Source: Costertonia aggregata
GTDB lineage: Bacteria > Bacteroidota > Bacteroidia > Flavobacteriales > Flavobacteriaceae
DNA length: 64,000 bases
NCBI RefSeq assembly: GCF_013402795.1
Contig: NZ_CP058595.1
Span: forward strand, 1,709,501 to 1,773,500
Reading direction: 5' to 3'
The first letter of the stretch is position 1; every line of letters begins with the position of its first letter. Of the stretch, positions 6,118 through 58,910 are shown piece after piece. The notes beneath the pieces were generated by a model, which searched no databases, was not told the DNA's origin, and saw only the letters and a list, made by a program, of their open reading frames with translations. The position numbers and the translations under genes were made by a program.

Positions 6118-6136
6118 TGCTTTTTACATTTTAAGC

Positions 6137-39826: not shown

Positions 39827-39844
39827 GTGCTTTCCACTATGTTT

Positions 39845-40201: not shown

Positions 40202-40202
40202 T

Positions 40203-40496: not shown

Positions 40497-40512
40497 ATCA
40501 ATTTGTTTGATG

Positions 40513-40549: not shown

Positions 40550-40565
40550 AATGATTTTTCTTGCC

Positions 40566-40704: not shown

Positions 40705-40709
40705 TTGTT

Positions 40710-40871: not shown

Positions 40872-41696
40872 TTAGCTATGGTCCTTAGAGAGTTTCTTCC
40901 ATGAGCCTATAACTATCAGTGCTTTTGGTCGAATACTTTCAACGAACATTGTGTTACCAATTTCATCATTAATAAACTCTCTTATTTTCTTTCCTCCAAT
41001 CTTATATTCATCATCATTATCCTTATGGATTGCTGTTATGTACCTTTCAGTTTGTGAAATAGCGATTGCTAAATCCTTGGAGGGGTAAAACTTCCCTCTT
41101 CCATTCCCATAATCAAAAAGGTATTGGTCAGGCCTTTTTAATTCAACAATCTCAATGTCTCCTAAATGATTTATTAGGATTAGGTCAAATTGGGAACGCG
41201 AACTTCCTTCATGAATTACATACTTATCGGTGTTGAGTAATGCAGGTACTCCAAAGATTGAATATTGTCCATAATCACTCAATATTTTCTCCATTAAGTG
41301 CTCAGGTCCTGTGATACTAACTTTAGTGTATTTAAACTTTTCTGAGCCAATATTTTTCGCTTTAGGTTTTGTCAGCTTATCTATGTCTAATATTTCCTCT
41401 ACTGTATCAATTAGCCACTCAGTTTGCTTATTGATATGTTTTTCAATTACAACTTTAGATGATTCTCCTGATTCCAAATTATCCGTAAATGCTACAATGT
41501 CTTCTTGGGTGAATTCACCACTCGCAAGAATTTCATCAAGAAGAAGTGAATAGTCTCGTTCAACTTCAATCTCAGAAGTATCAAGACCAAATTCAGAATT
41601 CATATATGGCACAACTCTATTAAAAACCCTTACTTTCTTGTCTTTTCCTTCTTCTCGATTGATTCGATTTATTGTTTCATAAAGAGTCTTGGTCAC
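40872..41696 (-). CDS. Cassette 14: Shedu-like (DUF4263) nuclease, truncated by a stop codon
   Basis: 274 aa to the first stop; 328 aa if the stop were read through. The C-terminal half has the PD-(D/E)XK-type site D171, E185, K187 (QFDLIL...IEIVELKRP) and the downstream AISQTERYI Gln helix typical of Shedu defence nucleases. The N-terminal half is unassigned, as is usual in that family, where it senses phage. GTG start at 41696, coupled by GTGA overlap to the small membrane gene before it. The premature TAA removes the last conserved block (ILTYSELL), so activity is doubtful. Confidence 0.78.
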   Translation of the reverse strand: MTKTLYETINRINREEGKDKKVRVFNRVVPYMNSEFGLDTSEIEVERDYSLLLDEILASGEFTQEDIVAFTDNLESGESSKVVIEKHINKQTEWLIDTVEEILDIDKLTKPKAKNIGSEKFKYTKVSITGPEHLMEKILSDYGQYSIFGVPALLNTDKYVIHEGSSRSQFDLILINHLGDIEIVELKRPDQYLFDYGNGRGKFYPSKDLAIAISQTERYITAIHKDNDDEYKIGGKKIREFINDEIGNTMFVESIRPKALIVIGSWKKLSKDHS

Positions 41697-41809
41697 ATTA
41701 ATTTCATTCCTCCGAATGATTCGTTTCTTCTTGCCACTTTCTTGGAATCTTCATTAAATTTCCAAATAACGTAACCAACAATAATTAAAATTAGGATGAA
41801 CCAAACCAT
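41693..41809 (-). CDS. Cassette 14: small membrane protein (38 aa)
   Basis: Too short for routine gene calls but well supported by context: its ATG overlaps the previous stop (TAATG at 41811-41807) and its own stop overlaps the next start (GTGA at 41696-41693). The peptide is one hydrophobic helix (MVWFILILIIVGYVIWKF) and a charged tail (EDSKKVARRNES). It could anchor or regulate the Shedu-like protein; this is inference. Confidence 0.65.
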   Translation of the reverse strand: MVWFILILIIVGYVIWKFNEDSKKVARRNESFGGMKLM

Positions 41810-42423
41810 TACTTAATTCTTTTTACGATTTTGTTCAAAATTCTATTTCTGATGAAACTGTTTATTTTTTCTTTGTTTTTCAGTTTTTCTGCGATTGGTG
41901 GCGAAATGAAATAATAAGTTTTTATGAAAAGTCTACCAAAAGTATTTTTTGCCAAAACATTATCTCTGAACAGTTTCAGATACAGAACTTCAGGTGCAAA
42001 TTCATTACCATAACAAGCAGTCGCAATATAACAGCCACTTTTTCCACTTGACGCACTTTTTTGGGGTTTCGGATGTCCCATTATTTTTTCATATTCCTCT
42101 GCATCTTCTTTTTGCATTATCTCATAACCTTCGTGAGAAACATAAACCCTGCGATTGTTCATAAAAGACCAACTTGGGAAAGTTTCATCAATTCTTTGTC
42201 CTGTGTATGGGCAACGACCTCTATTGACTAATCCTAAATTGTCCAAGTAGGTAAAAATGTCCAAAGACCTAACAATATGATTTTGCAAAAAATTTGTTAG
42301 CGTTTCAAAACTTTCTGGTTCAAATGGTTTTTGCTCGACTTTGTCTGCCAAAACTCCTTTTGATTTCAGTTCGTTGCAAATGTCATTTACATATTCTGTG
42401 GTAAATTCTGAATAATATTTCAT
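41809..42423 (-). CDS. Cassette 14: CFI-box C-terminal domain protein
   Basis: 204 aa, soluble. The C-terminal 60 residues, from CYIATACYGNEFAPEVL through LKLFRDNVL to YYFISPPIAEKL, match the CFI-box C-terminal region found at the end of many unrelated bacterial proteins. The middle has CPYTGQRID, a possible half of a metal site. Function unknown. First gene of a three-gene operon with the small membrane protein and the Shedu-like nuclease, all inside one cassette. Confidence 0.7.
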   Translation of the reverse strand: MKYYSEFTTEYVNDICNELKSKGVLADKVEQKPFEPESFETLTNFLQNHIVRSLDIFTYLDNLGLVNRGRCPYTGQRIDETFPSWSFMNNRRVYVSHEGYEIMQKEDAEEYEKIMGHPKPQKSASSGKSGCYIATACYGNEFAPEVLYLKLFRDNVLAKNTFGRLFIKTYYFISPPIAEKLKNKEKINSFIRNRILNKIVKRIK

Positions 42424-42445
42424 TGGCGATGGTTGGTTTTAAAAT

Positions 42446-42647
42446 GTTTTACAACGGTTCGGCTAAGCGTAGTGCGGAGATAAGGAAACCTTTCGTTTCC
42501 GTCTGCGCACGAAGCTAGAGCTTTTGGTTTTGCTTTTTCTTTTTTTGTCCAAAGCTAAATCCCAAAGATTTAGCGACCTTATAAATATACACAGACCTAT
42601 CGGTTTAACCCTAAAGCCCGCATTACGTTTAGGTATTGTTACCCAAC
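42446..42647 (-). other. attC-like site 13
   Basis: Left core GTTTTACAAC, right core GTTACCCAAC. Arms CTAAGCGTAGTGCGG and CCGCATTACGTTTAGG pair. Loop hairpin GGAAAC-CTTTC-GTTTCC. Confidence 0.85.
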
Positions 42648-45732: not shown

Positions 45733-45873
45733 GTTGGGTAACGTGTTACGTGTATGAATAGTTGCGTGTTTGTGCGCGGCGATTTTCCGTAGGAAAATCG
45801 GACGCTAACAAACGGAGCAACGTCCAAAGTGCAAGCCACTGGCAGCAATTATTTATACGCGGTGTTATGCACA
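45733..45873 (-). other. attC-like site 12
   Basis: Left core GTTGGGTAAC, right core GTTATGCACA. Arms GTGTATGAATAGTTGCG and GCAATTATTTATACGC pair. Loop hairpin CGATTTTCC-GTA-GGAAAATCG. Confidence 0.9.
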
Positions 45874-46263
45874 GGTTTTTTTGTATTTTTTTTATCCGCA
45901 CGGGTCAAATTCCGGTGCTTTTTTAAAGCTCTCAATTTATCAAATTTTTCCTTAAAATCTCAAAAAAATTCCGATTTTAATTGTCCTTTTTTACGCACAG
46001 TTCGGTCACAGGTTTACTCCGTGGCTTAAATTCGGCCGTGGACTTTTGGAAGGCTGGACCTTTCGTTTCCAAAACTGCATTTGGCAGGTCCTTGATTCAG
46101 CGCAATTTTCCGCAATGTTTTTCAGTTCCGTTCCAGTGGATTTTTATGCGGGAAATCACGAGCGGTGTTCCGCTATCCATATTGTCATTTTTAGTGCGTT
46201 GGAAATAGGACTTACATTTCGTAAAGCACGGGTTTTTAAAAGATGCCCCAACTTGTGCATAAC
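45864..46263 (-). repeat. Non-coding cassette 12
   Basis: 400 bp with matched ends GTTATGCACA / TGTGCATAAC and no convincing gene on the - strand. It is a shorter relative of cassette 11 (47680-48179): both open with the same ~100 bp (CGCACGGGTCAAATTCCGG, AAAAAAATTCCGATTTTAA) and close with the same ~80 bp. Possibly a decayed gene or an RNA; short frames beginning M-x-IWIAEH appear in both copies. Confidence 0.7.
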
Positions 46264-46381
46264 GGTTGGGTGTATGAATAGTTGCGTGTTTGTGCGCGGC
46301 GATTTTCCGAAGGAAAATCGGACGCTAGCAAACAGAACAACGTCCCAAGTGCAAGCCACTGGCAGCAATTATTTATACACG

Positions 46382-47679
46382 TCTTAAGTTAGATTCTCTT
46401 TAAATTGATGTAATAACCAGAAAGAACAAAAGAGAGAATTAAGGTTAGTATACACGGTGAAGCTTCAGACTTCGACAACATTGATAATCCTCTCTCTTTT
46501 ACTACTTAAATCACGTTCAGTTCTGTGAGACCTTAGATCTCGTTTTCAAGTTGTTGTGAGCAGAAGTAGCCGGTTCTTTCATAAAATATTTGTTATGAAT
46601 AAATATAAAGAAACTTTTGGAGTCGACATTGGTAAAGATGTCTTTGATGTACATGGCAGTAACAAAGGTCACAACCGGTATAAGAACGATGAAACGGGAT
46701 TCAAGAAATACCTTAAAGAATTACCCCCTGGTTCATTGGTGGTTATGGAAGCTACAGGTTATTATCATTACAGACTGGCACAGTTTCTTTACAAAAATCA
46801 GGTACTGGTATCAGTTGTAAATCCTTTATCAATAAAGCGATTTATTCAAATGAGATTAGCAAAAGTAAAAACGGACAAAAGTGATGCAAAGGCTATTTGT
46901 GAATATGCTTTAATCAATGAAGTCCCTATTTACGATGCTTTGACAGATATCCAAAGTGAGTGTTTACAGTTGTTTCGGTTATTGGACACATATTTAAAAC
47001 AGCGTACCGCAACTAAGAACAAGATACATGGAGAAGTTGTTTTGGGTGTTCCGTCAAAGTTTGTTTATCGTTCATTGATCCGTAACAGGAAACAGCTGGA
47101 TAAAGAAATATCGGCTATCGAATTAAAGATTCTGTCATTGGTAAAAAAGGATCAACAAGAGCAATTGACCCTGTTAACTTCCATACCTGGAATAGGTCAA
47201 AAGACAGCCTTGTTCTTAATAGTTGTGACCGACGGTTTTTCCAAGTTTGAGACTGCGGCACAGCTTTGTAGTTACGTTGGCATAACTCCAACGATAAGAG
47301 AGTCAGGGAGCAGCGTTAGAGGTCGTTCACGAATAAGTAAGGTAGGTAATGGAAAACTGCGCAACCTATTATTTCTATGCTCTTTCAATGCCTGTAAGCA
47401 CAACAAGGCATGTACGGCGGTTTATGATCGGATAGTAAATAAAGGGAAAAGCAAGAAGCTTGCTTTGATAGCAGTAGCCAACAAACTGCTTAAACAGTGT
47501 TTTGCCATTGCAAAATCTGGCAGGCCATATGACGAAACTTACGTTTCGATATTGCCAAGATAAATCAGGAAAAAAATAGAATAAAAAAGCTCAAAGAACC
47601 AAGTTATTGAATCTATGAGCCTAGAATGATAATGTCTCAGATTAAGGAGTAATTTGTTTGTTTTTTATCTCAGTTCTTT
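46382..47679 (+). mobile_element. IS110-family insertion sequence A
   Basis: About 1.3 kb. Boundaries inferred by comparing the broken attC site with intact site 12: sequence departs at 46382 and resumes at 47680. No terminal inverted repeats or obvious target duplication, as usual in IS110. The 213-bp region before the transposase contains inverted repeats (AGAGAGAATTAAGG with CCTCTCTCTTTT; GAGACC...TCTC), the place where IS110-group elements encode their bridge RNA; the downstream end is short (116 bp). Confidence 0.8.
46595..47563 (+). CDS. IS110-family transposase (element A)
   Basis: 322 aa. N-terminal DEDD (RuvC-like) domain: FGVDIGKDVFDVHG with the first Asp, VVMEATGYYHYRL with the Glu, KTDKSDAKAI with the Asp pair. 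C-terminal transposase_20 domain: LLTSIPGIGQKTALFL with the helix-hairpin-helix, and the catalytic Ser region (RESGSSVRGRSRISK, GNGKLRNLLFL). ATG 46595 is preferred over an upstream in-frame ATG because the family begins just before the GVDIG motif. Appears intact. Confidence 0.93.
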   Translation: MNKYKETFGVDIGKDVFDVHGSNKGHNRYKNDETGFKKYLKELPPGSLVVMEATGYYHYRLAQFLYKNQVLVSVVNPLSIKRFIQMRLAKVKTDKSDAKAICEYALINEVPIYDALTDIQSECLQLFRLLDTYLKQRTATKNKIHGEVVLGVPSKFVYRSLIRNRKQLDKEISAIELKILSLVKKDQQEQLTLLTSIPGIGQKTALFLIVVTDGFSKFETAAQLCSYVGITPTIRESGSSVRGRSRISKVGNGKLRNLLFLCSFNACKHNKACTAVYDRIVNKGKSKKLALIAVANKLLKQCFAIAKSGRPYDETYVSILPR

Positions 47680-48179
47680 GTTATGCACAGGTTTTTTTAT
47701 TTTTTTCATCCGCACGGGTCAAATTCCGGTGCTTTTTTAAAGCTCTCAATTTATCGAATTTTTCCTTAAAATCTCAAAAAAATTCCGATTTTAATTGAGT
47801 TTTTTCCGTTAAGGTCAACCGTTTTTCAATTCAGCACGAACGCTGGGTGTTCCAGGATTCACTTTTCAGGAAACAAGCTGGGAAAATCCTTTTTCCGCAC
47901 AGTTCGGTCGTAGTTTCAGCTCGGTGCTCTCCGTGGCTGAAATTCTGTCGCGAACTTTTTGGGGGCTAAGTCTTTCGGTTTAAAAACTGCGTTTGTTAGG
48001 TCTTTTATTCAGCTCAATTTTCCGCAATGTTTTTCAGTTCCGTCCCGTTCAGATAGGTTCATTTTCGGATTGTCCCGAGTAATGTTCCGCTATCCATATT
48101 TTCATTTTTAGTCCGTTGTAAATAGGACTTGCATTTCGGAAAGCACGGGTTTTCAAAAGATGCCCAACTTGTGCATAAC
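47680..48179 (-). repeat. Non-coding cassette 11
   Basis: 500 bp with matched ends GTTATGCACA / TGTGCATAAC. Homologous to cassette 12 but with about 100 bp extra in the middle. No gene visible. AT-rich with many T-runs. Confidence 0.7.
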
Positions 48180-48370
48180 GGTTCGGCTATGAACAGTACG
48201 GGAGCAAATTAGCGTTTACTTTCCGTTTGGTACTTAGCCAAACCTTTTTGTTTTGCTTTTTCTTTTTTTATTTAATGCCAAATCCAAAAGATTTGGCGGT
48301 GCTCATTGATACTCCGGGTTTATAACTTAAGCAGCTAAACCCGTATTGTTTATAGGTTGTGTTGTACACC
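48170..48370 (-). other. attC-like site 10
   Basis: Left core TGTGCATAAC, right core GTTGTACACC. Arms GGCTATGAACAGTACGGG and CCCGTATTGTTTATAGG pair. The arms are nearly the same as those of site 8. Confidence 0.87.
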
Positions 48371-48371: not shown

Positions 48372-49187
48372 TTATTTTTCAGGCGCTAAGAAATCCGAAA
48401 CATCCAGTTTTTCAGAGTCCATTGACTTTTTATCCAAAATTCGGTCAAATGGGATTTGTCCATTTTCAGTCAATTCATCCGTTACTTTCTTAGCATATGA
48501 GTGAGCAAAGTTTTCTTTTTCTCGTGATGGAATTTTGTCATAGTCGGCCCAGAAATCATAATCGGTATTTTTTCTTGAAGGTCTCTCTATTTTTTTCAAA
48601 TATTCAACGTAGTGACCAACTTCATGAATAAAAGTCCGATAAAGCATTGTATTCCTTAATCCTCTAATTGTTGGGTTAATTATAAAATCTCTTTTGCTTT
48701 CTGTCATTTCATGTCCGTCTTGAAGCAGTCTCTCAAATTCTTTTCTGTCTTCATTTTTTAGAGATTTTGACCATTTTATTGTTCTATTAAAATCAAAAGA
48801 TTCTAACATAATTGCAGCACCTTCGTGTTTGTCAATTTCTACAAAATAATTAAGTCGTCCCCACACCGGTTTTAGAGTTTCCTCTCGTCTTTTGGGTTGT
48901 CGAAAGACAATTAAATGTAGATTTTCTAAATCATATGGATTAAGTAATTCAATAATTTTCGCAACGTCATCTACTGTACAAGGGTGAACACTATCCTTTC
49001 TTGTTTTCTCAACAAGAAAAGTATATTCCTTTGAATTTATGATTCGCTTTACAACAGTGTATTCTTCAAGTTTTTCCCAGAAAATCCGTAAGTCATTCCA
49101 GCTATCAGAAATGACATTCCGATTATTTTGACCATAACCCTGTTTGGAAGTTCCTATATTTCTGTTTCTCTTCGTTGGATTGAACAT
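48372..49187 (-). CDS. Cassette 10: HEVGH zinc-metallopeptidase-like protein
   Basis: 271 aa, no signal peptide. TFIHEVGHYVEYL (HEVGH at 188-192) is a zincin HExxH motif; a third ligand may be E or D in the downstream DYDFWADYDKIPSREKENFA region (quoted in part), where E215-F216-A217-H218-S219 resembles the glutamate helix of minimal gluzincins. Substrate unknown; toxin-like or housekeeping roles are both possible. Single-gene cassette with ends GTTGTACACC and GGTTTACAAC (9 of 10 match). Its stop lies 2 bp from the left core. Confidence 0.65.
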   Translation of the reverse strand: MFNPTKRNRNIGTSKQGYGQNNRNVISDSWNDLRIFWEKLEEYTVVKRIINSKEYTFLVEKTRKDSVHPCTVDDVAKIIELLNPYDLENLHLIVFRQPKRREETLKPVWGRLNYFVEIDKHEGAAIMLESFDFNRTIKWSKSLKNEDRKEFERLLQDGHEMTESKRDFIINPTIRGLRNTMLYRTFIHEVGHYVEYLKKIERPSRKNTDYDFWADYDKIPSREKENFAHSYAKKVTDELTENGQIPFDRILDKKSMDSEKLDVSDFLAPEK

Positions 49188-49377
49188 TTCTTATAATGGT
49201 TTACAACGGTCTCGTATAACCGTCAGTTACGGGTTAATATGCATTAATTTTCGGTTTAGCACAAGCTTTAGCAATTCCGAGTGGATTCGGACGTAGTCGA
49301 ATCCGCCGTAATTGCGGTTAGCATCTATGAAAAAGCAGCCTGTCGAGTATCTTTAAGATCCGTTAAAATCAAAAGAT

Positions 49378-50433
49378 ATGGAAACACAACAAACTGCAAG
49401 ACCTAAGTTATTCATTGGTATCGACATACACAAACGTAGCTGGAAGGTCCACTGTGCTACCGACCTTAGTTCCGGCAGGACTTTTTCAATGTCGCCCGAG
49501 CCTGAACTGCTTCTAAACTATGTTGAGAAGTATTATCCCGATTACGATGTTACAACAGCTTATGAAGCTGGCTGTTGCGGTTACCATGCCCATCGTTGCT
49601 TCGAGGGTTATGGTTGGCGTTCTTTGGTGGTGAACCCTGCGGATATTTTCAGGAGAGGTAAGGAACGCCATACCAAGACCGATAGGATAGATGCACAGCT
49701 CATAGCCAGGGAGCTTAAAGATGGTCGTTTGGAGAGCATACAAGTGCCCGACCCCAAGCGGGAACAATTGCGAAGTCTCTTTAGAAGGCGTAACGATCTG
49801 GTCAAGGATATGCGCCAGGTCAAGAGTTATATCAAGATGCAGTTGTTGTATTACGGGATAACGGTACCGGAGGAGTTCGACAATGACCATTGGAGCCATA
49901 GGTTCCGTACTTGGTTGGACACGTTGGTCTTCGATTACGAACCGTGCAATATTGTACTTGCGAGCCGTATGCGCAGTTTCAGGTTTATCGACAAGGAGTT
50001 CAGGGATGTATCGACGAGCCTTCGCAAGTACACCAAGCAATATTATAAGAAGGACTTTGAGTTATTGAAGAGTATTCCCGGGATAGGGGGCATAGTCGCC
50101 AGTGGTATTTTAAGTGAGCTGGGCGACCTGCGCCGTTTCAAGAACATCAAGCACTTGGCAGGTTATGTGGGCATGGCCCCTGGGGTTTACCAGAGTGGCG
50201 ACACTTTCCGCAATACGGGTATCACCATGCGTGCTCACCGCTTGATGAGGAGTTACTTTATAGAAGCGTCTTGGCAAGCTATTCGAACCGATCCCGTGAT
50301 GCAGGGGTATTATAGAAAACACCGGGGCAAGAACGTTAAATCGATTATAGTGAAGGTAGCTAGAAAACTACTGAGCAGAACCCTTGCAGTAATAAAGACG
50401 GAGACTCCCTATCAAATAGGGGTCATAGAATAA
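49378..50433 (+). CDS. IS110-family (IS1111-like) transposase (element B)
   Basis: 351 aa. DEDD domain: LFIGIDIHKRSWKVH (D16), TAYEAGCCGYHAH (Glu), HTKTDRIDAQLIA (Asp pair). C-terminal transposase_20 domain: LLKSIPGIGGIVASGILSE and the Ser-bearing segment PGVYQSGDTFRNTGITMRA, then SYFIEASWQAI. Complete, no frameshift. Not closely similar to the element A enzyme, so the two arrived independently. Confidence 0.93.
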   Translation: METQQTARPKLFIGIDIHKRSWKVHCATDLSSGRTFSMSPEPELLLNYVEKYYPDYDVTTAYEAGCCGYHAHRCFEGYGWRSLVVNPADIFRRGKERHTKTDRIDAQLIARELKDGRLESIQVPDPKREQLRSLFRRRNDLVKDMRQVKSYIKMQLLYYGITVPEEFDNDHWSHRFRTWLDTLVFDYEPCNIVLASRMRSFRFIDKEFRDVSTSLRKYTKQYYKKDFELLKSIPGIGGIVASGILSELGDLRRFKNIKHLAGYVGMAPGVYQSGDTFRNTGITMRAHRLMRSYFIEASWQAIRTDPVMQGYYRKHRGKNVKSIIVKVARKLLSRTLAVIKTETPYQIGVIE

Positions 50434-50493
50434 ATATAAATTGATAACAAAGCTCAACAAGAAGTAACATAGTCCAGATCACAGAACAATGTG

Positions 50494-50596
50494 GGTGAAG
50501 ATCGGCTTTTAAGATCTATCACATCGGTTAGCAAGTGACCGGACTGATTAACTTATGATCATACAGATGCCGGTGAAGACCAAAAGGTCTATCACA
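50494..50596 (+). ncRNA. Candidate bridge-RNA region of IS element B
   Basis: Two hairpins of the same design lie 78 bp apart: GTGAAGATC...GATCTATCAC (from 50495) and GTGAAGACC-AAAA-GGTCTATCAC (from 50573). Each stem has one bulged base and each is followed by CAT. The pairing of two similar stem-loops in the 3' non-coding end suits a bridge RNA with a target loop and a donor loop. Exact ends cannot be read from sequence. Confidence 0.5.
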
Positions 50597-50716
50597 TATA
50601 GGATGCGGAGCAAGTTATATTAAAAGAAAAAAAGGGTGGTTTAAGATTAAACAACATATTAATTATCTTTGAGACACTGGACTATGGCTTTTCATAGGAG
50701 CCATTGTTGGGCACAG

Positions 50717-51484
50717 TTATTTATATTTTATTTCTCGGATTATTATTCTTTTCAGAATTCCGTTTTCAATTACCTTTTTTTCTGTCCAGTTGTCAAATTC
50801 GTCCAGTTTATACTTAAATTTCTGATTTGACAGTAAAGAGTCTCTTTCATTATATTCCTTAAGTCCGACAAAATTCTTTCCATCAAATTCGTATACTGCT
50901 TTTCGGTTTTGTCCTTTTCTGCGAAGATTGATTGATAAAATACTGTCAACTTTTTCGTCAGTATTGAAGTAAGTAGTAACAGTTGAATTTCTAATTGTGT
51001 CATTGGTTTCTTTGTCAAGAAATATTTGTCTCATTATTGACTTCTCTTTGGTATCGTCATTTCTGTAATAATGAGTTTCTATTTGCTCAAACCTTTCAGT
51101 TTCATTATCCATAATTCCGCTTGATTGAAAAAGTAAAGAGTTTTTATATGAATAGTTTACTTTGAGTGGTATACTGTCTGTTGACATTTTCACAATCTCT
51201 TGTTTTAATCTGTCGGAATAGTCATAGATATATTCAATTTCCATGTGTCCATTGTCAAATAATGTTTTTCGAGTTTGAATCGCTATTTGGTCATCATCTC
51301 TATATTTTTTTACCGCAATTAAAAGGGTATCACGAATTTCGTTTTTTAAAGAATCTTCTTGAATTCGAATCGTGTATTCAGTTATTTCTTCCACACTTTT
51401 AGTCAATCCGTTGTCCCAAATCTTCTTTTGTTTACTGCAACCAATTATGGATAAAGAAAAAAATAATACCAGTAGTCTGTTCAT
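50717..51484 (-). CDS. Cassette 9: lipoprotein of unknown function
   Basis: 255 aa. Lipoprotein signal MNRLLVLFFSLSIIGC with Cys16 as lipid anchor. The mature part is repetitive beta-strand-rich (YDYSDRLKQEIV, YSYKNSLLFQSSG, EFDGKNFVGLKEYNERDSL), like RHS/YD-type or MORN-like toxin-antidote folds seen in other Bacteroidota lipoproteins; no enzyme motif seen. Single-gene cassette with ends GTTGGGCACA / TGTGCCCAAC, a perfect 10-bp match. Confidence 0.65.
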   Translation of the reverse strand: MNRLLVLFFSLSIIGCSKQKKIWDNGLTKSVEEITEYTIRIQEDSLKNEIRDTLLIAVKKYRDDDQIAIQTRKTLFDNGHMEIEYIYDYSDRLKQEIVKMSTDSIPLKVNYSYKNSLLFQSSGIMDNETERFEQIETHYYRNDDTKEKSIMRQIFLDKETNDTIRNSTVTTYFNTDEKVDSILSINLRRKGQNRKAVYEFDGKNFVGLKEYNERDSLLSNQKFKYKLDEFDNWTEKKVIENGILKRIIIREIKYK

Positions 51485-51495: not shown

Positions 51496-51698
51496 TGTGC
51501 CCAACGGTTTAGCTATGAACAGTACGGGAGCAAACTAGCGTTTGCTTTCCGCCACGCACATAGCGAAATCTTTTGGTTTTCTTTTTTTCTTTGTCCCGCT
51601 AAAAAGCAAAATCCCAAAGATTTTGCGGACTTCATAAAAATACACAGACCTTTGGTTTAAGCCCGAAGCCCGTATTGTTTATAGGTTTTGTTAGCCGC
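51496..51698 (-). other. attC-like site 8
   Basis: Left core TGTGCCCAAC, right core GTTAGCCGC. Arms AGCTATGAACAGTACGGG and CCCGTATTGTTTATAGG pair. Long loop containing AAATCTTTTGG / CCCAAAGATTTTG inverted segments. Confidence 0.88.
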
Positions 51699-51711: not shown

Positions 51712-53034
51712 TTATCTCTTTAACGCCTCTGGATTGCTTATAATTTTCTTTATGAAATCCCATTCTGCCTGTTCTATATCGTCGCGAACATCTTTTTCTG
51801 CAATTTGAATGATTTTTAAATATAGTAATTCAGATAATTTGTCTAAACCACGTTGATATTCTGTGTCAATAGTTTTTAAATCAAAATCAGGGAAACTCAT
51901 ATCAAATCCATTCTCGGAGTCAAAATTTATGTTAAGAAGTATCTCTTCATTTAAAATTACCGAAGAATAATTTTTAGGAGTAATTTCTTTAATAAGTTGT
52001 TCAAATTCATAGGATTTAAGTTCCTCCGATATTATGGTTTGTTTAGATACTTTTCCTGAGCTAAGTTCTCTTCTATGAACTATTGAACTTTCAAGTCGTC
52101 CAATTTCATCTTTGTTAATTTCTACTATTGGTAGTAATTTTTTCTTTTGCTCTGTGGCAATTCTTGGTATGAAGATTTTGTTATAATTGTCAGTATCGTA
52201 ATAACCTATTTTATAGGCTGAGTTTTTAGCTTTTATTCTTGTAAGCGGTCTGAATATATCATTAATTTCTTTGTCACTAAATTCTTTCTTTAATATCTGA
52301 ATGCTCTCAGTATCAAGTGGATTTATAAAAATGTTTGTATGATATTTTTCAACAATGTTTGACTTGAGTTGTTTGATTTTATCATCTTCTCCTTCTCTAC
52401 TAAGAAAATCATTTGCTAACGAAAATTTGAAACTACCTATTGAAGAACCTGTGAGTAAAGGATTTGCTAGTTTTTCAAATTCTTTTGCGGCCTCTTCTGA
52501 ATAATCCCAATCTTTTGCGAATCTTGTAAACATACTAGATGCATAAGATTTTAAAGATTTCAAGAAATTATTACTAAAATCCTTAAGCATTTCTAAGCTA
52601 ACTGAATTGCCAAAAACTGAATGCGATGGCTCTAATATGTAATGAATACTTTTTTGCCTTAATTGTGTTAAATAATTATATTCATTACTTGCACCATAAG
52701 GAGACATGTTTTTTAGAGATACAGAAATCTCTAGCGCATCATTTAGTTGAGATTTAATTTCTTTATCTGTTACGTTTAATAGACCAAAAAAAATGAACTC
52801 CTGTGCTTTGTCAATCAATCCAGCTTTAAGATTAAGAAATGCTGCGCTTCTAATTAAAACACTTCTTGTCGGTTCTAACTCTGGTTTGTCAAAGTAGAAT
52901 TTGGCAACTTTGCTCTCTATTTCAGCTGCTTTACAAAACATTTCAAACGCATAGTCAGAATTATTCTCCGAAACAGCTTGTTTAGCTTTAAACGAATAAT
53001 CCATTGCTTGTTGATGAAGTAGTTTTGCTTTCAT
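51712..53034 (-). CDS. Cassette 8: unknown protein, second gene of a two-gene system
   Basis: 440 aa, soluble. The first ~125 residues look like a helical TPR-type repeat region (QAMDYSFKAKQAVSEN, AFEMFCKAAEIE, FLNLKAGLIDKAQEFIFFG). The rest is mixed with no motif that I recognise. ATG 53034 overlaps the stop of the 179-aa gene (TAATG), so the pair is translationally coupled and travels as one cassette. A two-component defence or stress system would fit, but no evidence is visible beyond the pairing. Confidence 0.6.
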   Translation of the reverse strand: MKAKLLHQQAMDYSFKAKQAVSENNSDYAFEMFCKAAEIESKVAKFYFDKPELEPTRSVLIRSAAFLNLKAGLIDKAQEFIFFGLLNVTDKEIKSQLNDALEISVSLKNMSPYGASNEYNYLTQLRQKSIHYILEPSHSVFGNSVSLEMLKDFSNNFLKSLKSYASSMFTRFAKDWDYSEEAAKEFEKLANPLLTGSSIGSFKFSLANDFLSREGEDDKIKQLKSNIVEKYHTNIFINPLDTESIQILKKEFSDKEINDIFRPLTRIKAKNSAYKIGYYDTDNYNKIFIPRIATEQKKKLLPIVEINKDEIGRLESSIVHRRELSSGKVSKQTIISEELKSYEFEQLIKEITPKNYSSVILNEEILLNINFDSENGFDMSFPDFDLKTIDTEYQRGLDKLSELLYLKIIQIAEKDVRDDIEQAEWDFIKKIISNPEALKR

Positions 53035-53573
53035 TAGTGAAGTTCTCTTATGGTTTTAGGTTCGCTAAACAAAGTAACAATTACTGATGAAGATTTATCT
53101 TTTTTTCTCCCTTTATTTATTTGTTCGTGTTTAATCTTTATTCTCCTTTTTAAAGTATTTGTCGCTGATTCCCTTAATATGCCAGATACCTCGACATAGT
53201 GATAATCGTCTAAGAAGTTTAAATCATCATCTTTAGGTTCATTTATTTTGAATCTGTAGTCAACCCCATCTCCAATTTCAGATTGTTCAACATACGTAAA
53301 ACCAGATAGCGTCGACATCACAAAAAAAGCAATAGCTACTCCACCGTGATTTGCCATATCAATATTTTCTTTCATTGCGGCAGAAGGAAAATCCGAATCC
53401 CATGACAACATTATTTCTTGGTCACTATTATCATTGGTAATCTTAATTGTAGCCTTTGAATTCGAGTGAAATTTGTCCAAAGCTACAGCCGCCCATTGGT
53501 TTCCAACTATTATTTGTTCTTTCGTCGGTCCCTTAAGTTTTTGTACGGTTTCTTTTAAATTATGAGATTTCAT
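53034..53573 (-). CDS. Cassette 8: unknown protein, first gene of a two-gene system
   Basis: 179 aa, soluble. Conserved-looking segment MANHGGVAIAFFVMSTLSGF then VEQSEIGDGVDYRF; this small helix-strand core is not a family that I can name. About 90 bp separate the start from the right core GCGGCTAAC, enough for a promoter. Cassette ends GTTAGCCGC / GCGGCTAAC match over 9 bp. Confidence 0.6.
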   Translation of the reverse strand: MKSHNLKETVQKLKGPTKEQIIVGNQWAAVALDKFHSNSKATIKITNDNSDQEIMLSWDSDFPSAAMKENIDMANHGGVAIAFFVMSTLSGFTYVEQSEIGDGVDYRFKINEPKDDDLNFLDDYHYVEVSGILRESATNTLKRRIKIKHEQINKGRKKDKSSSVIVTLFSEPKTIRELH

Positions 53574-53664: not shown

Positions 53665-53769
53665 GCGGCTAACGGCCACGCGGGTAAGGCGAGTAGCGTT
53701 GTCCGCGCATGTGCGGACGGAGCTATGCCAGCCTTTAGTCGCTATTTGCTTTATCCGCCTGTTGTCGGA
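53665..53769 (-). other. attC-like site 7
   Basis: Left core GCGGCTAAC, right core GTTGTCGGA. Arms GGGTAAGGCGAGTAGCG / CGCTATTTGCTTTATCC; loop hairpin GTCCGC-GCATGT-GCGGAC. Same inner sequence as site 4 and 18 but a different left core. Confidence 0.9.
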
Positions 53770-53935
53770 AGTGCAACTGCGTGTCTGCCGTATTGTTTCC
53801 GGTAAAAATACTAAAAAGCCTTTGGTTCTTTTAAAGCAAATTGCAGCGTACTGCGTGGCCGTTGTCGGGAATAGTGGAAAGGGAGTTCGCTTTGGGCGAA
53901 CGTATTTGCACGTGCCCGTGGGCATTTCCGACAAC
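53761..53935 (-). repeat. Non-coding cassette X, copy 3
   Basis: 175 bp, ends GTTGTCGGAA / TTCCGACAAC. Practically identical to copy 4 (55742-55916), suggesting recent duplication or insertion. Confidence 0.88.
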
Positions 53936-54064
53936 GGTCTCGGCTAAGGTTCGTGGCGTTGATCTGTCCGCTGGACAGTCACGCCGAACCTAAAGATAGC
54001 TTTTTGCGCAGGATTTCCTGCAAGGAAATCCGCAAGCAATGAATTTTAGCCCTTGTTATAAACA
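53926..54064 (-). other. attC-like site 6
   Basis: Left core TTCCGACAAC, right core GTTATAAACA. Arms GGCTAAGGTTCGTGG / CAATGAATTTTAGCC. Loop contains two hairpins: CTGTCC-GCT-GGACAG and GGATTTCC-TGCAA-GGAAATCC. Confidence 0.87.
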
Positions 54065-54742
54065 GGTTTTTATTTCCGTCAAATTTTCCATCCACTCGTC
54101 CGTTTGCAATTGATTTAGTTTTAATCCGTTTTGGCTAATCGATAATATTTGAAGGATATTATTTGGCTCTGTTTGTCCAATTGTAAATATTAAAAAAGCA
54201 TTTCCTTTGATTTTTTTAACTGACCAATACCCATTGTCGTTCCAGTTCTTGTTTACAAATTGATTTTTTGGTTGAGGCGTGTTCAAAGTAATATCGCGGA
54301 AGAACTTATCTCCGCTAAACTCGCCTTTAATTCCTTGAATAGAATCGAATTGGTGGGTTATTAAGAAGTCCGAAATTTCATTTTTATCTAGGTCAATTTC
54401 ATGTGCTAAGTCCAGTTTTCGAAAAACATAAATAGTATTTTCCAACCCATTCATTTCGATGGAATCTTGTCCGAACTGTCGAAACTTTATTTTAGCTTTT
54501 AAAGCCCTACTTTTTATTTTTGATTTTCTAAAATTAACTTTGATTTTAACTACTGTGTCCGTTTTAATATGACCCATTGTAGAATTGTCGAAATCGATAA
54601 TTATTCCCTCATCTCCTGTCGTGTGGTATGTTGTTCCTTCTACAATCCGGTTGTTGTACGACATCCAAACTCCATTCAATTCCTGTCCATAAGAATTGGT
54701 GAGTCCAGTTAGAATAAATAAAATGATTATTGTTTTTTTCAA
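54056..54742 (-). CDS. Cassette 6: exported protein of unknown function
   Basis: 228 aa with signal peptide (1-19, ends SYGQ). Starts the mature part with ELNGVWMSYN and is beta-rich, with a lipocalin-like look (ELNGVW, TTGDEGIIIDF, ENTIYVFRKL), but no assignment is certain. The stop codon TAA lies inside the right core of attC-like site 6 (GTTATAAACA read on the other strand), and the ATG begins 3 bp from the other core, so the cassette is essentially all gene and must be transcribed from outside. Confidence 0.65.
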   Translation of the reverse strand: MKKTIIILFILTGLTNSYGQELNGVWMSYNNRIVEGTTYHTTGDEGIIIDFDNSTMGHIKTDTVVKIKVNFRKSKIKSRALKAKIKFRQFGQDSIEMNGLENTIYVFRKLDLAHEIDLDKNEISDFLITHQFDSIQGIKGEFSGDKFFRDITLNTPQPKNQFVNKNWNDNGYWSVKKIKGNAFLIFTIGQTEPNNILQILSISQNGLKLNQLQTDEWMENLTEIKTCL

Positions 54743-54745: not shown

Positions 54746-54885
54746 TGTTTATAACGTTTGTGTATATGGTTTGTTGCGTGTTTCAAGCAACTAATTTAGT
54801 AAATAAAAACCGACCAAGAAAGTCCGCGAGGACTTTCGTAAGTAGGCAAGAAACCAGCAATAAATTATATACGGTGTTATGTGCA
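54746..54885 (-). other. attC-like site 5
   Basis: Left core TGTTTATAAC, right core GTTATGTGCA. Arms GTATATGGTTTGTTGC / GCAATAAATTATATAC. Loop hairpin GAAAGTCC-GCGA-GGACTTTC is perfect. Confidence 0.9.
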
Positions 54886-54896: not shown

Positions 54897-55592
54897 TTAT
54901 TTAAATCTGTCAAATACTGTAAGTCCAGAAAGTTTGCCTGATTCTAATAGATTATTCATTAATTCCATATCATCGTTATCATTATAATCTTTCATAAGTT
55001 CTTTTTGAAAATCTAACATATAAATTACAAAATCAAAAAATATTTGGATGTGATTATTCAAAGCAACAATAGTGTTTTTTGAGTCATATTCGGGCAAAAC
55101 ACTATATCCAATCGAGTCAATATTTGGTTTTTCTGCTAATAATGCAAATGGTTCCGTTTTTGATGAATGTGCTATTTCAGAGAACATTCCATACATACTT
55201 TTTAGATTATCGCTTACGTTTCCGTTTCCAATATTTGGTGTTTTGCCTTTTAACCTTTGGATACTTTCTTTATTACTTGTCTTTTTGTCAATTTCGGATA
55301 ATCTCGCAACTAATTCTATTTGTTTTCTTTCTAAAACTGTGACCTCAATTAATTCACTATTAAGAATATGTTCGCTAATAATCAATTGAGTTCTTATAAA
55401 AGATACAATCAATGCAAATTTATAATTATCAATTTCTCCCATTCCGCTAACATTTTCAAAACGATTTATTAATGATGCGAAATATTTGTCCATAAATCCT
55501 AATATTTCAAAAACTTTAGGATATTCTGTCTCAATTTTTTGTTTTGAAAACTCTCTTTCGTTCAGAACTTCTTTTGTATAATTTTCAATCAT
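54897..55592 (-). CDS. Cassette 5: helical hypothetical protein
   Basis: 231 aa, soluble, almost all alpha-helical. MYGMFSEIAHSSKTEPF resembles the (Y/F)xxxSxxxHS core of DUF5677/HEPN-like proteins, as in cassette 21, though the two are not close copies. Function unknown. Matched cassette ends GTTATGTGCA / TGCACATAAC (10 bp). Start 53 bp from the right core. Confidence 0.6.
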   Translation of the reverse strand: MIENYTKEVLNEREFSKQKIETEYPKVFEILGFMDKYFASLINRFENVSGMGEIDNYKFALIVSFIRTQLIISEHILNSELIEVTVLERKQIELVARLSEIDKKTSNKESIQRLKGKTPNIGNGNVSDNLKSMYGMFSEIAHSSKTEPFALLAEKPNIDSIGYSVLPEYDSKNTIVALNNHIQIFFDFVIYMLDFQKELMKDYNDNDDMELMNNLLESGKLSGLTVFDRFK

Positions 55593-55644: not shown

Positions 55645-55750
55645 TGCACATAACGGCCATGCGGGTAAGGCGAGTAGCGTTGTCCGCGCATGTGCGGACG
55701 GAGCTATGCCAGCCTTTAGTCGCTATTTGCTTTATCCGCCTGTTGTCGGA
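55645..55750 (-). other. attC-like site 4
   Basis: Left core TGCACATAAC, right core GTTGTCGGA. Arms GGGTAAGGCGAGTAGCG / CGCTATTTGCTTTATCC with the left arm carrying three extra bases (CAT). Loop hairpin GTCCGC-GCATGT-GCGGAC. A model example for the array. Confidence 0.9.
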
Positions 55751-55916
55751 AGTGCAACTGCGTGTCTGCCGTATTGTTTCCGGTAAAAATACTAAAAAGC
55801 CTTTGGTTCTTTTAAAGCAAATTGCAGCGTACTGCGTGGCCGTTGTCGGGAATAGTGGAAAGGGAGTTCGCTTTGGGCGAACGTATTTGCACGTGCCCGT
55901 GGGCATTTCCGACAAC
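55742..55916 (-). repeat. Non-coding cassette X, copy 4
   Basis: 175 bp, ends GTTGTCGGAA / TTCCGACAAC, hairpin GTTCGC-TTTGG-GCGAAC, internal core-like GTTGTCGGGAA at 55842. No gene; frames across it are interrupted or merely reflect the repeat. Confidence 0.88.
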
Positions 55917-56154
55917 GGTATGGTGTATGGCTCGTTGCGTGCAAATTAGCTATTAATTTTCGGTTATGCACAAGCCAGATTTTTAAATTTTACTATTTAT
56001 CTTACTTTTTGGAAATCGTCTACCGAAGGACTACTGCCACCTAAATATAAAATAAAAACGCCAGTAAATTTAAAAATTTGGCGACTTTACAAAAATACCT
56101 TTACGTTCGATTAAGCAATTGACCAGCAATGAGCTATACACGTTGTTACCTGTA
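55907..56154 (-). other. attC-like site 3
   Basis: Left core TTCCGACAAC, right core GTTACCTGTA. Arms GTGTATGGCTCGTTGC / GCAATGAGCTATACAC. Longest intact site (about 250 bp); its loop shares AAATTTAAAAATTTGGCG with sites 2, 19 and 21. Confidence 0.87.
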
Positions 56155-56161: not shown

Positions 56162-56494
56162 CTACGCTACTTTAAATTCTGCTTCGTTCATTTCCACGCT
56201 AAATTTCACATTGGCTTTCAATGCTCGAAATACTTTTAAAATGGTTTCGATGGTCACGTTTTTTGTATTTCGTTCCAATTTGGAAATCTGAGATTTTTGT
56301 ACTCCAATTAATTCACCAAGTTGTTCTTGGGTTAAGTTTCGTTCTTTACGTACAGACTTAATCATTTCGCCCAATAGTTCCATTCGCAAGTCAAATTCGT
56401 ACTTATCTCGCTCTGGTGTTCCTATTTTTCCGATATCCCTATCTTTTAGTTCGTCAAGGGTCATCATTTTCATTTTTTTATTTTTCGTTGCCAT
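56162..56494 (-). CDS. Cassette 3: XRE-family antitoxin
   Basis: 110 aa. Helix-turn-helix ERNLTQEQLGELIGVQKSQIS followed by KLERN (the first quoted at its limit; HTH about residues 65-95), the standard DNA-binding half of toxin-first antitoxins. ATG 56494 starts 4 bp after the toxin stop and is preferred to an upstream overlapping ATG. The stop is 7 bp from the left core. Confidence 0.87.
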   Translation of the reverse strand: MATKNKKMKMMTLDELKDRDIGKIGTPERDKYEFDLRMELLGEMIKSVRKERNLTQEQLGELIGVQKSQISKLERNTKNVTIETILKVFRALKANVKFSVEMNEAEFKVA

Positions 56495-56498
56495 AATT

Positions 56499-56831
56499 TT
56501 ATTGTTCAAAGTATTTTTTTCTAATTCGTTCCGCTTTGTCAATATCGGCTTTCGGTACCTTACTTACTTTCTTGACAATTCCATGTGTTGAAATCACGAG
56601 CGTTTCAGATTTGTCTGTTCTGTCCCAAAATGCGAATAGTCTGTATTGCAATCCGCTATATTTTGTTCTGAATTCCCAAATGTCATCGGTCAGTTTTTTG
56701 AACAGCTTAGGGTCAAGTCCTAGTTTGGCTTTGTCAATATTGTAATAGATTTTCTCTTTTGTTTTCAAATCGAGACTATCTAAAAAATCAATCGCTTGTT
56801 CAAGAAAAACGACTTCAAATCTTCTGTTCAT
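56499..56831 (-). CDS. Cassette 3: RelE/HigB-like (Gp49-type) toxin
   Basis: 110 aa. Begins RRFEVVFLEQAIDFLDSL and contains IWEFRTKYSGLQYRLFAFWD, then THGIVKKVSKVPKADIDKA, the order of phage-derived Gp49-like/HigB toxins in the RelE superfamily (segments quoted within limits). Ribosome-dependent mRNA cleavage expected. Paired with the XRE antitoxin; cassette ends GTTACCTGTA / TACAGGTAAC match over 10 bp. About 80 bp upstream for a promoter. Confidence 0.87.
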   Translation of the reverse strand: MNRRFEVVFLEQAIDFLDSLDLKTKEKIYYNIDKAKLGLDPKLFKKLTDDIWEFRTKYSGLQYRLFAFWDRTDKSETLVISTHGIVKKVSKVPKADIDKAERIRKKYFEQ

Positions 56832-56913: not shown

Positions 56914-57113
56914 TACAGGTAACGGTTTGGGTATGGCTCGTAGCGTGTTAAAAGGTACGGACTTTTAGAATTAGCACAAGCAAAAATTTTTACATTTTGT
57001 TTTTAATTTTTAAGTACAAAAGCCAAATTTAAAAATTTGGCGGATTTCCAAAAACGCCCGAAACCTTCGATTAAACCACGACCTAGCTATGAGTTATACC
57101 CGTTGTTGGCACC
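56914..57113 (-). other. attC-like site 2
   Basis: Left core TACAGGTAAC, right core GTTGGCACC. Arms GGGTATGGCTCGTAG / CTATGAGTTATACCC. Loop includes AAATTTAAAAATTTGGCG. Confidence 0.87.
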
Positions 57114-57115: not shown

Positions 57116-57523
57116 TTATTTTTTTGGATGTCGATTTTCTTTAATCACTTTTTTACAAAAATCGATTGTTTTAATGACAGCATTACCAATTTCATTAAAA
57201 TCCGAAGTGTTTTTGATAAATATGTTTGGCGCTTTTTCATAAGACCAATGCGGCGTGGTAACGTAGGTGTTATTTTCCATTTCAATTACTACAACCACAT
57301 ATTCCCAATCCTTATCTTTTATTTTATTGTATTTGTCTGGGGACTCCCAATTTATTCCATTATATTCTATCTCGTAAAGTCCCGAATGAACAACTTTTCC
57401 AATTTCATCAGAATTTGAAGATTTTGAAATCTGAGTATATTTTAAGTCGCTCCTTCTGAACACATCGATTTGTTCAGTCGATTTTGAAATATAAATATCT
57501 GTTGCTTTAATGTTCAAAGTCAA
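57116..57523 (-). CDS. Cassette 2: hypothetical protein, second gene
   Basis: 135 aa, soluble, no signal. WEYVVVVIEMENNTYVTTPH and VIKTIDFCKKVIKENRH are the main ordered segments; no family recognised. Overlaps the lipoprotein gene before it by 4 bp (ATGA), so the two are one operon in one cassette. The stop codon is 2 bp from the left core. Confidence 0.6.
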   Translation of the reverse strand: MTLNIKATDIYISKSTEQIDVFRRSDLKYTQISKSSNSDEIGKVVHSGLYEIEYNGINWESPDKYNKIKDKDWEYVVVVIEMENNTYVTTPHWSYEKAPNIFIKNTSDFNEIGNAVIKTIDFCKKVIKENRHPKK

Positions 57524-57966
57524 TTATTCCAATTAGCTTTTAAATCTGGATTTATTTCTTTTAATCTGTTTACCAAATCATTTGAATTCTCAAATTCCGT
57601 TTTCCAATTTTTATTCAGTTTACTTTTCGGGTATCCTTTTCCAGATTTTAAATCACAAACTGCATAAATTTCGCTTTCTTTTCCCCAAGTCAGATATACA
57701 ATACTGTCATAAGACTTAGCTTTAAAATTTTCCAAGTCCATAATTTGGTCGTTAGTTCCAATTAAATGATGCTTTTCCAAAATCAGATTTTCATCAGAGT
57801 CCAATATTTCATAATATAATGGTGTCACAAAGTCAAATTCGTCTTTTTGGTAGATATTCACAAAAGTATTTTCTATTCCGCTCACTTTCAGTTGTCCGAT
57901 TTTCCGTTCTTGAAAACAGGATGTAAATAGAATTAAGGTAAGAAGTGAAAACAATTTCGATTTCAT
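57520..57966 (-). CDS. Cassette 2: small lipoprotein
   Basis: 148 aa. Start at 57966 gives MKSKLFSLLTLILFTSC, a typical lipoprotein signal with Cys17; an in-frame ATG 18 bp upstream sits almost in the attC core and is less likely. The mature part has no recognised domain (IYAVCDLKSGKGYPKSKLN near the end). Cassette ends GTTGGCACC / GGTGCCAAC match over 9 bp. Confidence 0.65.
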   Translation of the reverse strand: MKSKLFSLLTLILFTSCFQERKIGQLKVSGIENTFVNIYQKDEFDFVTPLYYEILDSDENLILEKHHLIGTNDQIMDLENFKAKSYDSIVYLTWGKESEIYAVCDLKSGKGYPKSKLNKNWKTEFENSNDLVNRLKEINPDLKANWNN

Positions 57967-57976
57967 TTTTCTAATT

Positions 57977-58111
57977 GGTGCCAACGGTCTCGGCTATGAG
58001 TAGTTGGGTGGATTAGCACTTAACTTTGCAAGTACACACCAAACTGAAAATCTGCGAGGATTTTCAGAAGTAGGCGAGAACAAGCAATTACTTATAGCCA
58101 TTGTTGTACGC
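57977..58111 (-). other. attC-like site 1 (next to the first cassette)
   Basis: Left core GGTGCCAAC, right core GTTGTACGC. Arms GGCTATGAGTA / TACTTATAGCC; three unpaired bases (TCT) on the left side. Loop hairpin CTGAAAATC-TGCGAG-GATTTTCAG. Confidence 0.9.
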
Positions 58112-58118: not shown

Positions 58119-58766
58119 TTATATTATTATGGTTAATTTCTTTTCGTTTATTTCTAATTCGATAATTTGCAAATTAGCACTCCGCTTAAAAACGAATTTA
58201 TTATTTCCTTTTTTCAATTCAGTTTTTGCAAATAGAGTTGTACTATGATTTTTTAATAAGTGATTTACTTCAAATTCAATTTCACTTTCTATTTCTGATT
58301 CCAATTTGATAATGATTTTTCCTTTCCTCCGTTTTAATCTGATATTTTTAAATTCAGATATTTCGTTCAGAACTGGTTTTTCAGGTTTTTGGAAAATAAC
58401 AAAACCAAGATTACATTTTTGGGGATAAACACCGTCAGATTCACAAAGAGAAGGTACAATTTGGATTTTATCAGATGGAAATAGTTTTAGAGTTTCTAAT
58501 TGTTCTTTCGAGAAGTCATTGACAATTGAAAAAGAGCCACCATCAATTACTGTAGTCAGCCAAAAGTCAAGTTCATCTTGTTTTGATTTTTGCTCACAAT
58601 TTATTCTTTCAAAAATTTTGTCTTTACGCTCGTCAGGATTTAGTTGTTTAATTTCTTTAATCCATTGTTGAGATTCCTCATAATTTTTAAAATCTCCGCA
58701 GTTATTTTGTCCAAATGAAACTTGGCTAAATAATATAAATAGAATGAAGATTTTAATGGCTCTCAT
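58119..58766 (-). CDS. Cassette 1: exported protein of unknown function
   Basis: 215 aa with signal peptide (1-19, ends SFGQ). Mature part begins NNCGDFKNYEESQQW; contains paired Cys (C23, C54, C113, C118 region) and a C-terminal beta-rich half (KGKIIIKLESEIESEIEF). No family recognised. This is the cassette nearest the recombinase, hence the most recent acquisition if the array works like an integron. Cassette ends GTTGTACGC / GCGTACAAC match over 9 bp. Confidence 0.62.
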   Translation of the reverse strand: MRAIKIFILFILFSQVSFGQNNCGDFKNYEESQQWIKEIKQLNPDERKDKIFERINCEQKSKQDELDFWLTTVIDGGSFSIVNDFSKEQLETLKLFPSDKIQIVPSLCESDGVYPQKCNLGFVIFQKPEKPVLNEISEFKNIRLKRRKGKIIIKLESEIESEIEFEVNHLLKNHSTTLFAKTELKKGNNKFVFKRSANLQIIELEINEKKLTIII

Positions 58767-58781: not shown

Positions 58782-58810
58782 GCGTACAACGTTAGTATAA
58801 AGATTATATC
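58782..58810 (-). other. attI-like primary insertion site
   Basis: Read on the - strand the junction is CTAAC-GTTGTACGC: the core of the first cassette abuts sequence that is not a cassette end. The + strand flank AACGTTAGTATAAAG resembles the left arm of the attC sites (compare AACGGTTCAGTATAAGA in site 16), but no complementary right arm follows. It lies 120 bp from the recombinase start, where attI is expected. Confidence 0.65.
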
Positions 58811-58910
58811 GTAAAACTACACTTTTTTATTGCTTAAAAATAGATAAACAGTTGGTTATGATTATATTCGTTAAAAAATTAACATAACCGCCCTTACGGC
58901 CAATAAAGCA

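Follow-up and report, generated by a model that had tools for sequence, protein, structure and literature searches.

Classical attC sites carry extrahelical bases within the L stem, on the R''-L'' arm (PMC2727003), and these bases are docked by the I2 region of the integron integrase IntI (PMC7790495); the extra domain of IntI has been placed by patch III (PMC9668308). I2 is described as necessary for cassette capture and as conferring single-strand recombination (PMC7790495). In the published account, it was by gaining I2 that a Xer-like enzyme became an integron integrase and could use folded single strands. Within Bacteroidetes proper, IntegronFinder 2.0 reported one complete integron, that of Salinibacter ruber, along with some in Chlorobi and Ignavibacteriae (PMC9024848). 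Clusters for recombinase-associated acquired interbacterial defence (rAID), described in Bacteroidales, combine a tyrosine recombinase, co-oriented short genes and conserved intergenic motifs (PMC12247911). In Riemerella anatipestifer, a gene with 27 bp of 5' flank and 140 bp of 3' flank integrates free of homology in natural transformation; the 140-bp 3' flank folds like attC, and the available part of that report leaves the route of integration unexplained (PMC13148043).

Here, I describe a locus of Costertonia aggregata (Flavobacteriaceae) that probably belongs to a widespread integron-like system of Bacteroidota, related to rAID, devoid of I2 and recombining folded single strands. The window, i.e. 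the whole stretch of DNA analysed (64,000 nucleotides of a 3.91-Mb contig), contains about 20 attC-like sites, which span 36264-58105 and divide minus-strand genes, with a plus-strand tyrosine recombinase gene at the right end (Table 1). Elsewhere in the window, 13260-27662 encodes a protein of 4800 aa that has SprB repeats and a type IX secretion signal domain. A literature search, with most subscription journals outside its scope, returned among the matches listed no description of such a system.

Table 1. Recombinase, sites and cassettes of the array, in window coordinates
Feature	Coordinates	Strand	Remarks
Tyrosine recombinase, 279 aa	58911-59750	+	Integron-integrase kin without I2 region
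Putative attI	58788-58910	+	AAC at 58788 adjoining first cassette's terminal repeat
First cassette gene	58119-58766	-	No Pfam match
attC-like site	57983-58105	+
Cassette with two short ORFs	57116-57984	-	57520-57984 no Pfam match; 57116-57523 outside Pfam scan
attC-like site	56921-57107	+
Toxin-antitoxin-like pair cassette	56162-56831	-	HTH_3 56162-56542; Gp49 56499-56831
attC-like site	55914-56147	+
ORF-less cassette copy 4, 265 nt	55652-55916	-
attC-like hairpin under study, 93 nt	55652-55744	+	AAC at 55652, GTT ends 55744
Cassette gene	54897-55592	-	No Pfam match
attC-like site	54753-54878	+
Cassette gene	54056-54742	-	No Pfam match
attC-like site	53933-54057	+
attC-like site	53671-53763	+	ORF-less cassette copy 3
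Two-gene cassette	51712-53573	-	51712-53034, 53034-53573; no Pfam match
attC-like site	51503-51692	+
Cassette gene	50717-51484	-	No Pfam match
attC-like site, split	49205-50708	+	IS110-family element, transposase 49378-50433
Cassette gene	48372-49187	-	No Pfam match
attC-like site	48177-48363	+
attC-like site, split	46261-47682	+	IS110-family element, transposase 46556-47563
attC-like site	45740-45866	+
Cassette gene, 910 aa	42832-45564	-	No Pfam match
attC-like site	42453-42640	+
Two ORFs	40872-42423	-	SduA_C (Shedu-like) 40872-41696; matchless ORF 41809-42423; segment ends unpaired
Short attC-like site	40639-40699	+	Flanks unpaired with neighbours' flanks
HigB_toxin ORF and HTH_3 partner	39845-40526	-	Toxin-antitoxin-like; segment ends unpaired
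attC-like site	39631-39819	+
PIN domain protein and DUF6364 partner, cassette	38900-39555	-	Toxin-antitoxin-like
Decayed attC-like site	38767-38888	+	Right GTT gone
attC-like site	38505-38597	+	ORF-less cassette copy 2
Cassette gene	37828-38475	-	Glyoxalase_3
attC-like site	37621-37812	+
attC-like site	37359-37451	+	ORF-less cassette copy 1
Cassette gene	36430-37326	-	DUF5677
attC-like site	36264-36418	+	Last one recognised in array

On the plus strand, a site reads, in order, AACG, left spacer, stem, variable loop, stem partner, right spacer and GTT. In the 16 intact window sites the left spacer measures about 6 nt (4-8) and the right one mostly 2-3 nt (2-5), the former, from AAC to the stem, being the longer by 2-4 nt in every case; the hairpin under study, part of the fourth copy of an ORF-less cassette, has spacers of 6 and 2 nt. 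At a score of at least 12, 15 places were found in the array region and one in the remaining window (19785), against 0, 0 and 1 in three dinucleotide shuffles of the array region, so that the attC-like folds with variable terminal loops noticed by the initial annotation are real. The 2-4 partnerless bases that it had seen on the left arm correspond to the surplus of the left spacer; they are not the classical extrahelical bases to which it had likened them, but an asymmetric unpaired central spacer (UCS) on the R'-L' arm, and a bulge of the classical type on the R''-L'' arm occurs in just 3 of 96 classified sites. Arms are named after the nomenclature given in PMC2727003, by which the AACG arm is R'-L' and the plus strand of the window is the bottom strand. 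Also borne out is the separate hairpin within the loops, which at most 5 of 100 shuffles match in 11 of the 16 window loops (four of the 11 being copies of the ORF-less cassette). The further statement that sequence is not conserved between sites holds only in part: AACG opens 20/20 window sites and two G.T pairs occupy fixed stem positions in 30/32 and 32/32 sites. A scan for AAC/GTT palindromes with neither wobble nor spacer rules mixed chance and true sites, and was superseded; thresholds and spacer limits varied among the scans of the window, the first loci, the second set, attI and the genomes with both enzymes.

Folding as single-stranded DNA covered 16 window sites, two split by IS, one decayed and one short site being left out. 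In the circular-cassette form the plus strand is the more stable in 16/16 (means -33.7 vs -28.8 kcal/mol for the minus strand, z -5.3 vs -3.5; strand difference among shuffles -0.25 +/- 1.95), and in the integrated form in 13/16 (mean -26.5 vs -23.8, p 0.002), the minus strand folding better at three. The folding of both strands, which the initial annotation had proposed as a check, thus returned a strand bias together with consistent unpaired bases. In 20 stretches from nine other genomes, the same strand has the lower energy in 58 of 64 distinct sites selected with the wobble unscored; since the loops alone lean the same way in 48 of these 64, part of the strand bias sits in the loop. Covariation in the set of 32 sites is inflated by their selection for arm complementarity, in which wobble counted as pairing. 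To test the direction of the wobble, sites were instead collected with wobble left unscored: 91 such sites hold 168 G.T cells vs 2 A.C. The strand asymmetry goes with these G.T wobbles, which are A.C on the opposite strand.

The 7-8 nt that follow the GTT of a site are complementary to those that precede the AAC of the next site, the two stretches being the opposite ends of one cassette. Such own-cassette ends match at 6/8 or better in 29 of 41 pairs, 16 of the 19 window pairs among them (mean with shuffled partners 2.6/8), the two flanks of one site in 3/57 only. A second set (L140-L159), new sequence from nine other genomes whose stretches were selected by their match to a model of the first sites, gave 72/101 own-cassette pairs that match at 6/7 or better, comprising 48 distinct 7-mers, and 12/141 for flanks of the same site. 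At position 8, only 1% of the 72 pairs match, the bases there being right G/left T in 62, C/T in 9 and A/T in 1, and beyond it pairing resumes for about 3 more nt. The end match is missing in 29/101 segments of the second set and in 3/19 of the window, in one of these three owing to an attI position one base off; the only window segments with clearly unpaired ends (1 and 3 of 8), within 39820-42452, flank the short site, near which a site may have been missed or rearranged. With most cassettes complementary at their two ends over 7 nt, a fixed wobble and about 3 more nt, circularisation would restore a single long attC-like stem.

The longest ORF of at least 60 aa between sites lies on the minus strand in 86 of the 101 segments of the second set, on the plus strand in 5, and is absent from 10. 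Tandem, co-oriented cassettes with one hairpin site apiece, an arrangement by which an integron is recognised, are thus what was found. Three gene pairs in the window array resemble toxin-antitoxin systems, and one protein is Shedu-like. Of 10 cassette proteins scanned with PADLOC, one matched (SduA-like), and Pfam named no T6SS immunity gene among 19 cassette proteins, 10 of which had no match at all. Two window sites are interrupted by IS110-family elements; among IS110/IS1111 elements, some target classical attC. On a Flagellimonas marinaquae plasmid (NZ_CP092416.1, 9896-12804), two sites enclose a dihydrofolate-reductase-family gene, and erm(F), pointing to the recombinase, lies between the second site and the putative attI.

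The recombinase matches the integron integrase model TIGR02249 in two pieces, at 192.6 bits, below the cut-off of 265, and its best NCBIfam model, of the XerA/integron class, at 196 bits, also under the cut-off (220). Against the IntI4 structure 2A3V the match again comes in two pieces, with about 42-43 residues missing where IntI has the I2 region, a stretch which I take to be the location of I2; the closest structural alignments are XerA-type. The same stretch counts 32-33 residues in 29/29 family relatives and in the window protein (32 in the latter), 32-33 in nine named plasmid relatives, 34-44 in the Xer rows, and 74 in 29/29 I2-bearing IntI of the phylum. A single-protein AlphaFold model (mean pLDDT 46) was not used.

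In a tree with 24 Xer rows as outgroup, which replaced a first one with four outgroup rows and long branches, I2-bearing IntI and I2-less proteins form one group (SH-aLRT 100), and the window recombinase groups with neither XerC nor XerD. I2-bearing IntI make up a single clade inside that group in two trees; the family trees allow it a place either beside or within the I2-less grade. The final tree has fewer I2-bearing rows, with I2 columns, gappy rows and 16 near-copies left out. Three relatives (L135, L136, L137) form a branch of their own within the group of IntI and I2-less proteins; two of them (L135, L136), proteobacterial, lie directly before an IS91-family transposase gene. A recombinase adjoining tet(X3) on an Acinetobacter baylyi plasmid also falls in the I2-less group; the 4.2 kb scanned there held no site, and the setting hints that this tet(X3) module derived from such an array. 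A scan of the genome contigs gave two distant recombinases only. By most of the structural comparisons made, the locus behaves like an integron; it is not filed as an IntI-type integron, for two defining features, an I2-bearing integrase and extrahelical bases, were looked for and this locus has neither as its rule.

Since published work ties single-strand recombination to I2, single-strand action is not a given here. An alternative, which I consider unlikely, is that recombination takes place on double strands at dif-like AAC/GTT cores, performed by this recombinase or by host XerC/XerD, with the palindrome just setting two binding sites head to head. An enzyme with no I2, closest to XerA-type structures and to a model of the XerA/integron class, would fit such a scheme; yet double-stranded sites give no reason for G.T wobbles confined to one strand (168 vs 2 cells), they leave unexplained that own-cassette pairing extends past the core through the wobble, and the family is set apart from XerC/XerD with an SH-aLRT of 100.

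The reading preferred here is recombination of folded strands. Sites were compared between 20 loci with I2-bearing IntI from the same phylum and 20 I2-less array stretches. Classification was limited to sites that start with AACG and continue with a perfect 5-8 bp up to a bulge, a wobble or an A.C mismatch. At the I2-bearing loci 17 sites in 8 loci were classifiable (12 of the 20 yielded none), and 17/17 have a right-arm (R''-L'') bulge of one base, located after stem pair 6 in 14, and no wobble; among the 96 classified sites of the I2-less stretches, a G.T wobble is present in 84 (in 80 it directly follows pair 6), a left bulge in 9 and a right bulge in 3, some of the sites being near-copies. 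The control, a single shuffle per strand, returned 0 and 2 sites for these two sets. Position 8 of the own-cassette pairs is G.T in 0 of the 8 matching pairs at I2-bearing loci. Strict classical attC (RYYYAAC..GTTRRRY, ungapped stems) were found at none of the 20 I2-bearing loci, and a gapped version gave four sites in three of them, each read on both strands; the bulge-aware finder superseded both scans.

One genome holds both enzymes, with bulges in 2/2 classified sites at the canonical locus and wobbles in 2/2 at the I2-less locus. Two genomes share a genus code: G323 has four bulge sites at its canonical locus and G334 three wobble sites at its I2-less locus, the other locus of each having no classified site. 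Of twelve other-family genomes with a window-type site, hand-picked from the phylum-wide site matches, 8 also carry a close recombinase, and all nine close recombinases of these genomes have 32-33 residues at the I2 stretch. Counter-cases exist: a locus of another family has a decayed window-type site (L108, 6649-6772) some 1 kb away from a canonical IntI, which may reflect the passage of a cassette from one system to the other; one canonical locus gave one scan match; and loci L204 and L206 have one right-bulge site each.

A covariance model built from 32 sites, with matches at E 1e-5 or better, found sites in the window's own family in 172 of 199 genomes and in the phylum in 78 of 296, the census scoring at most 17 and 11 candidates per genome, respectively. 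A close recombinase (E 1e-50) is present in 179/299 family genomes. At least 5 sites occur in 102 of the 116 genomes with a close recombinase vs 34 of the 82 without (p 4e-12); the latter 34 may be explained by the 1e-50 cut or by orphan arrays. I2-bearing IntI above cut-off occur in 84 of the 296 phylum genomes, and none of the 85 matching rows is from the window's family. Eight of the first 20 recombinase loci showed no site or chance-like ones only, several of the eight being cut by contig ends, and L198 and L202 had no site in the scan. At five loci the array is found at the 3' end of the recombinase gene and not upstream, its polarity unchanged.

A second alternative, an ordinary integron in decay whose IntI merely lost I2, would account for sites that retain AACG, the UCS and the bottom-strand bias. 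I regard it as improbable: the gap at I2 is common to the window protein and 29/29 aligned relatives, sites are numerous in most genomes that have a close recombinase, they follow a fixed wobble code of their own and not bulges, and I2-bearing IntI form one clade.

The ORF-less cassette bears on how units move. Besides copy 4, near-full copies start at 37359, 38505 and 53671 in the window and, outside it, at genome positions 2469214 and 2470053, together with weaker pieces. The six are 95-100% identical; identity is 0.96 inside them vs 0.43-0.44 in their flanks, and it breaks at AAC on both sides in all six, the flanks being different. The copied boundaries give the polarity: the site travels with the content on its right, just as, on the top strand, a gene is followed by the attC that moves with it. 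The two copies outside the window belong with a second cluster of the same site type (2448473-2471217 of the same genome), which shares the ORF-less cassette; it resembles an orphan (CALIN-like) array, since none of the eight recombinase matches in the genome lies inside it. Such near-identical copies, and two IS110 elements within the array, might suggest that homologous recombination or IS spread this cassette, but AAC breakpoints shared on both sides by six copies with different flanks make this very improbable. It is hardly credible that the array is a series of unrelated operons, with hairpins that serve as transcription terminators, REP-like repeats or RNA structures: strong hairpins do follow gene ends, but cassette transcripts carry the minus-strand sequence, where the wobbles become A.C mismatches, and the distant ends of one cassette pair and the units are sharply bounded.

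Between the nearest site and the recombinase gene, a partner for the end of the last cassette stands beside an AAC in 15/15 loci, two of which are copies of one locus. By eye, a simple TATA-rich half site follows this AAC in 11 of the 15, including the window, and in the other four the AAC opens an apparent further attC, not an attI; no partner half-site was seen in the putative attI of the window.

Taken as a whole, the likely explanation, judged from sequence, is a sedentary integron-like array whose recombinase uses the folded bottom strand and in which wobbles replace extrahelical bases. The recombinase would insert and excise cassettes at the AAC/GTT cores, a cassette unit presumably consisting of a minus-strand gene, or none, plus one site. 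Its substrate would be the cassette's bottom strand in folded, single-stranded form, as for IntI, in spite of its having no I2, with a double-stranded attI next to the recombinase gene as partner. The job of the extrahelical bases, i.e. distinguishing the bottom from the top strand, would fall to the fixed G.T wobbles (L stem pairs 7 and 12; position 8 beyond the core). The more general proposal, namely that an I2-less sister lineage of integron integrases, distributed across Bacteroidota, recombines folded single-stranded sites using strand-specific G.T wobbles where I2-bearing enzymes use extrahelical bases, is on balance favoured, with less assurance.

If true, folded-DNA cassette capture predates the I2 helix or is independent of it, and I2 and extrahelical bases are a later matched pair. 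A natural I2-less sister group with matching folded sites makes the account of I2 gain directly testable, and the exchange of wobble for bulge predicts the DNA feature read by each enzyme. Along the same line, a very common gene-capturing system of Bacteroidota would have been overlooked by tools based on IntI and classical attC, and a candidate mechanism would be at hand for rAID clusters and for the homology-free gene capture of Riemerella.

As to the known systems, the locus has several features of sedentary chromosomal integrons: its co-oriented cassettes extend away from the recombinase gene, each cassette has a single hairpin site, a G follows AAC in the AAC/GTT cores, and the sites have an unpaired central spacer and a variable terminal loop; the pairing of own-cassette ends, the predicted better folding of the bottom strand, and the presence of toxin-antitoxin-like and ORF-less cassettes are likewise common to both. 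It differs by a recombinase without the I2 region and by having few R''-L'' extrahelical bases, with G.T wobbles in their place. The R box consensus of integrons is RYYYAAC/GTTRRRY, from which the R boxes here depart: 1/20 and 1/19 fit it in the window, and 8 and 11 of 141 elsewhere.

From XerC/XerD and dif, which share the class of tyrosine recombinases and paired arms about a short core, the system is separated by its clade (SH-aLRT 100) and by many divergent cassette sites vs one dif. With the Riemerella integration, compared by description alone, the difference is that the available text of that report names no recombinase (PMC13148043).

With rAID, as far as described, it has in common a tyrosine recombinase, co-oriented short genes and intergenic motifs (PMC12247911), and it may differ in that rAID cassettes hold orphan immunity genes. 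The window recombinase is 39.7% identical to a protein, also I2-less, of a Parabacteroides plasmid. This plasmid carries at 4823-8554 a rAID-like cluster which, from its gene set, I infer to be a rAID system; by eye and at few sites, its intergenic hairpins show cassette-end pairing, and its sites, which end in ..ATTA and not ..GTTA, were missed by the site scanner. A Rufibacter plasmid has short sites (about 66 nt) that resemble these in spacer rule and in the position of the wobble, again by eye and at few sites.
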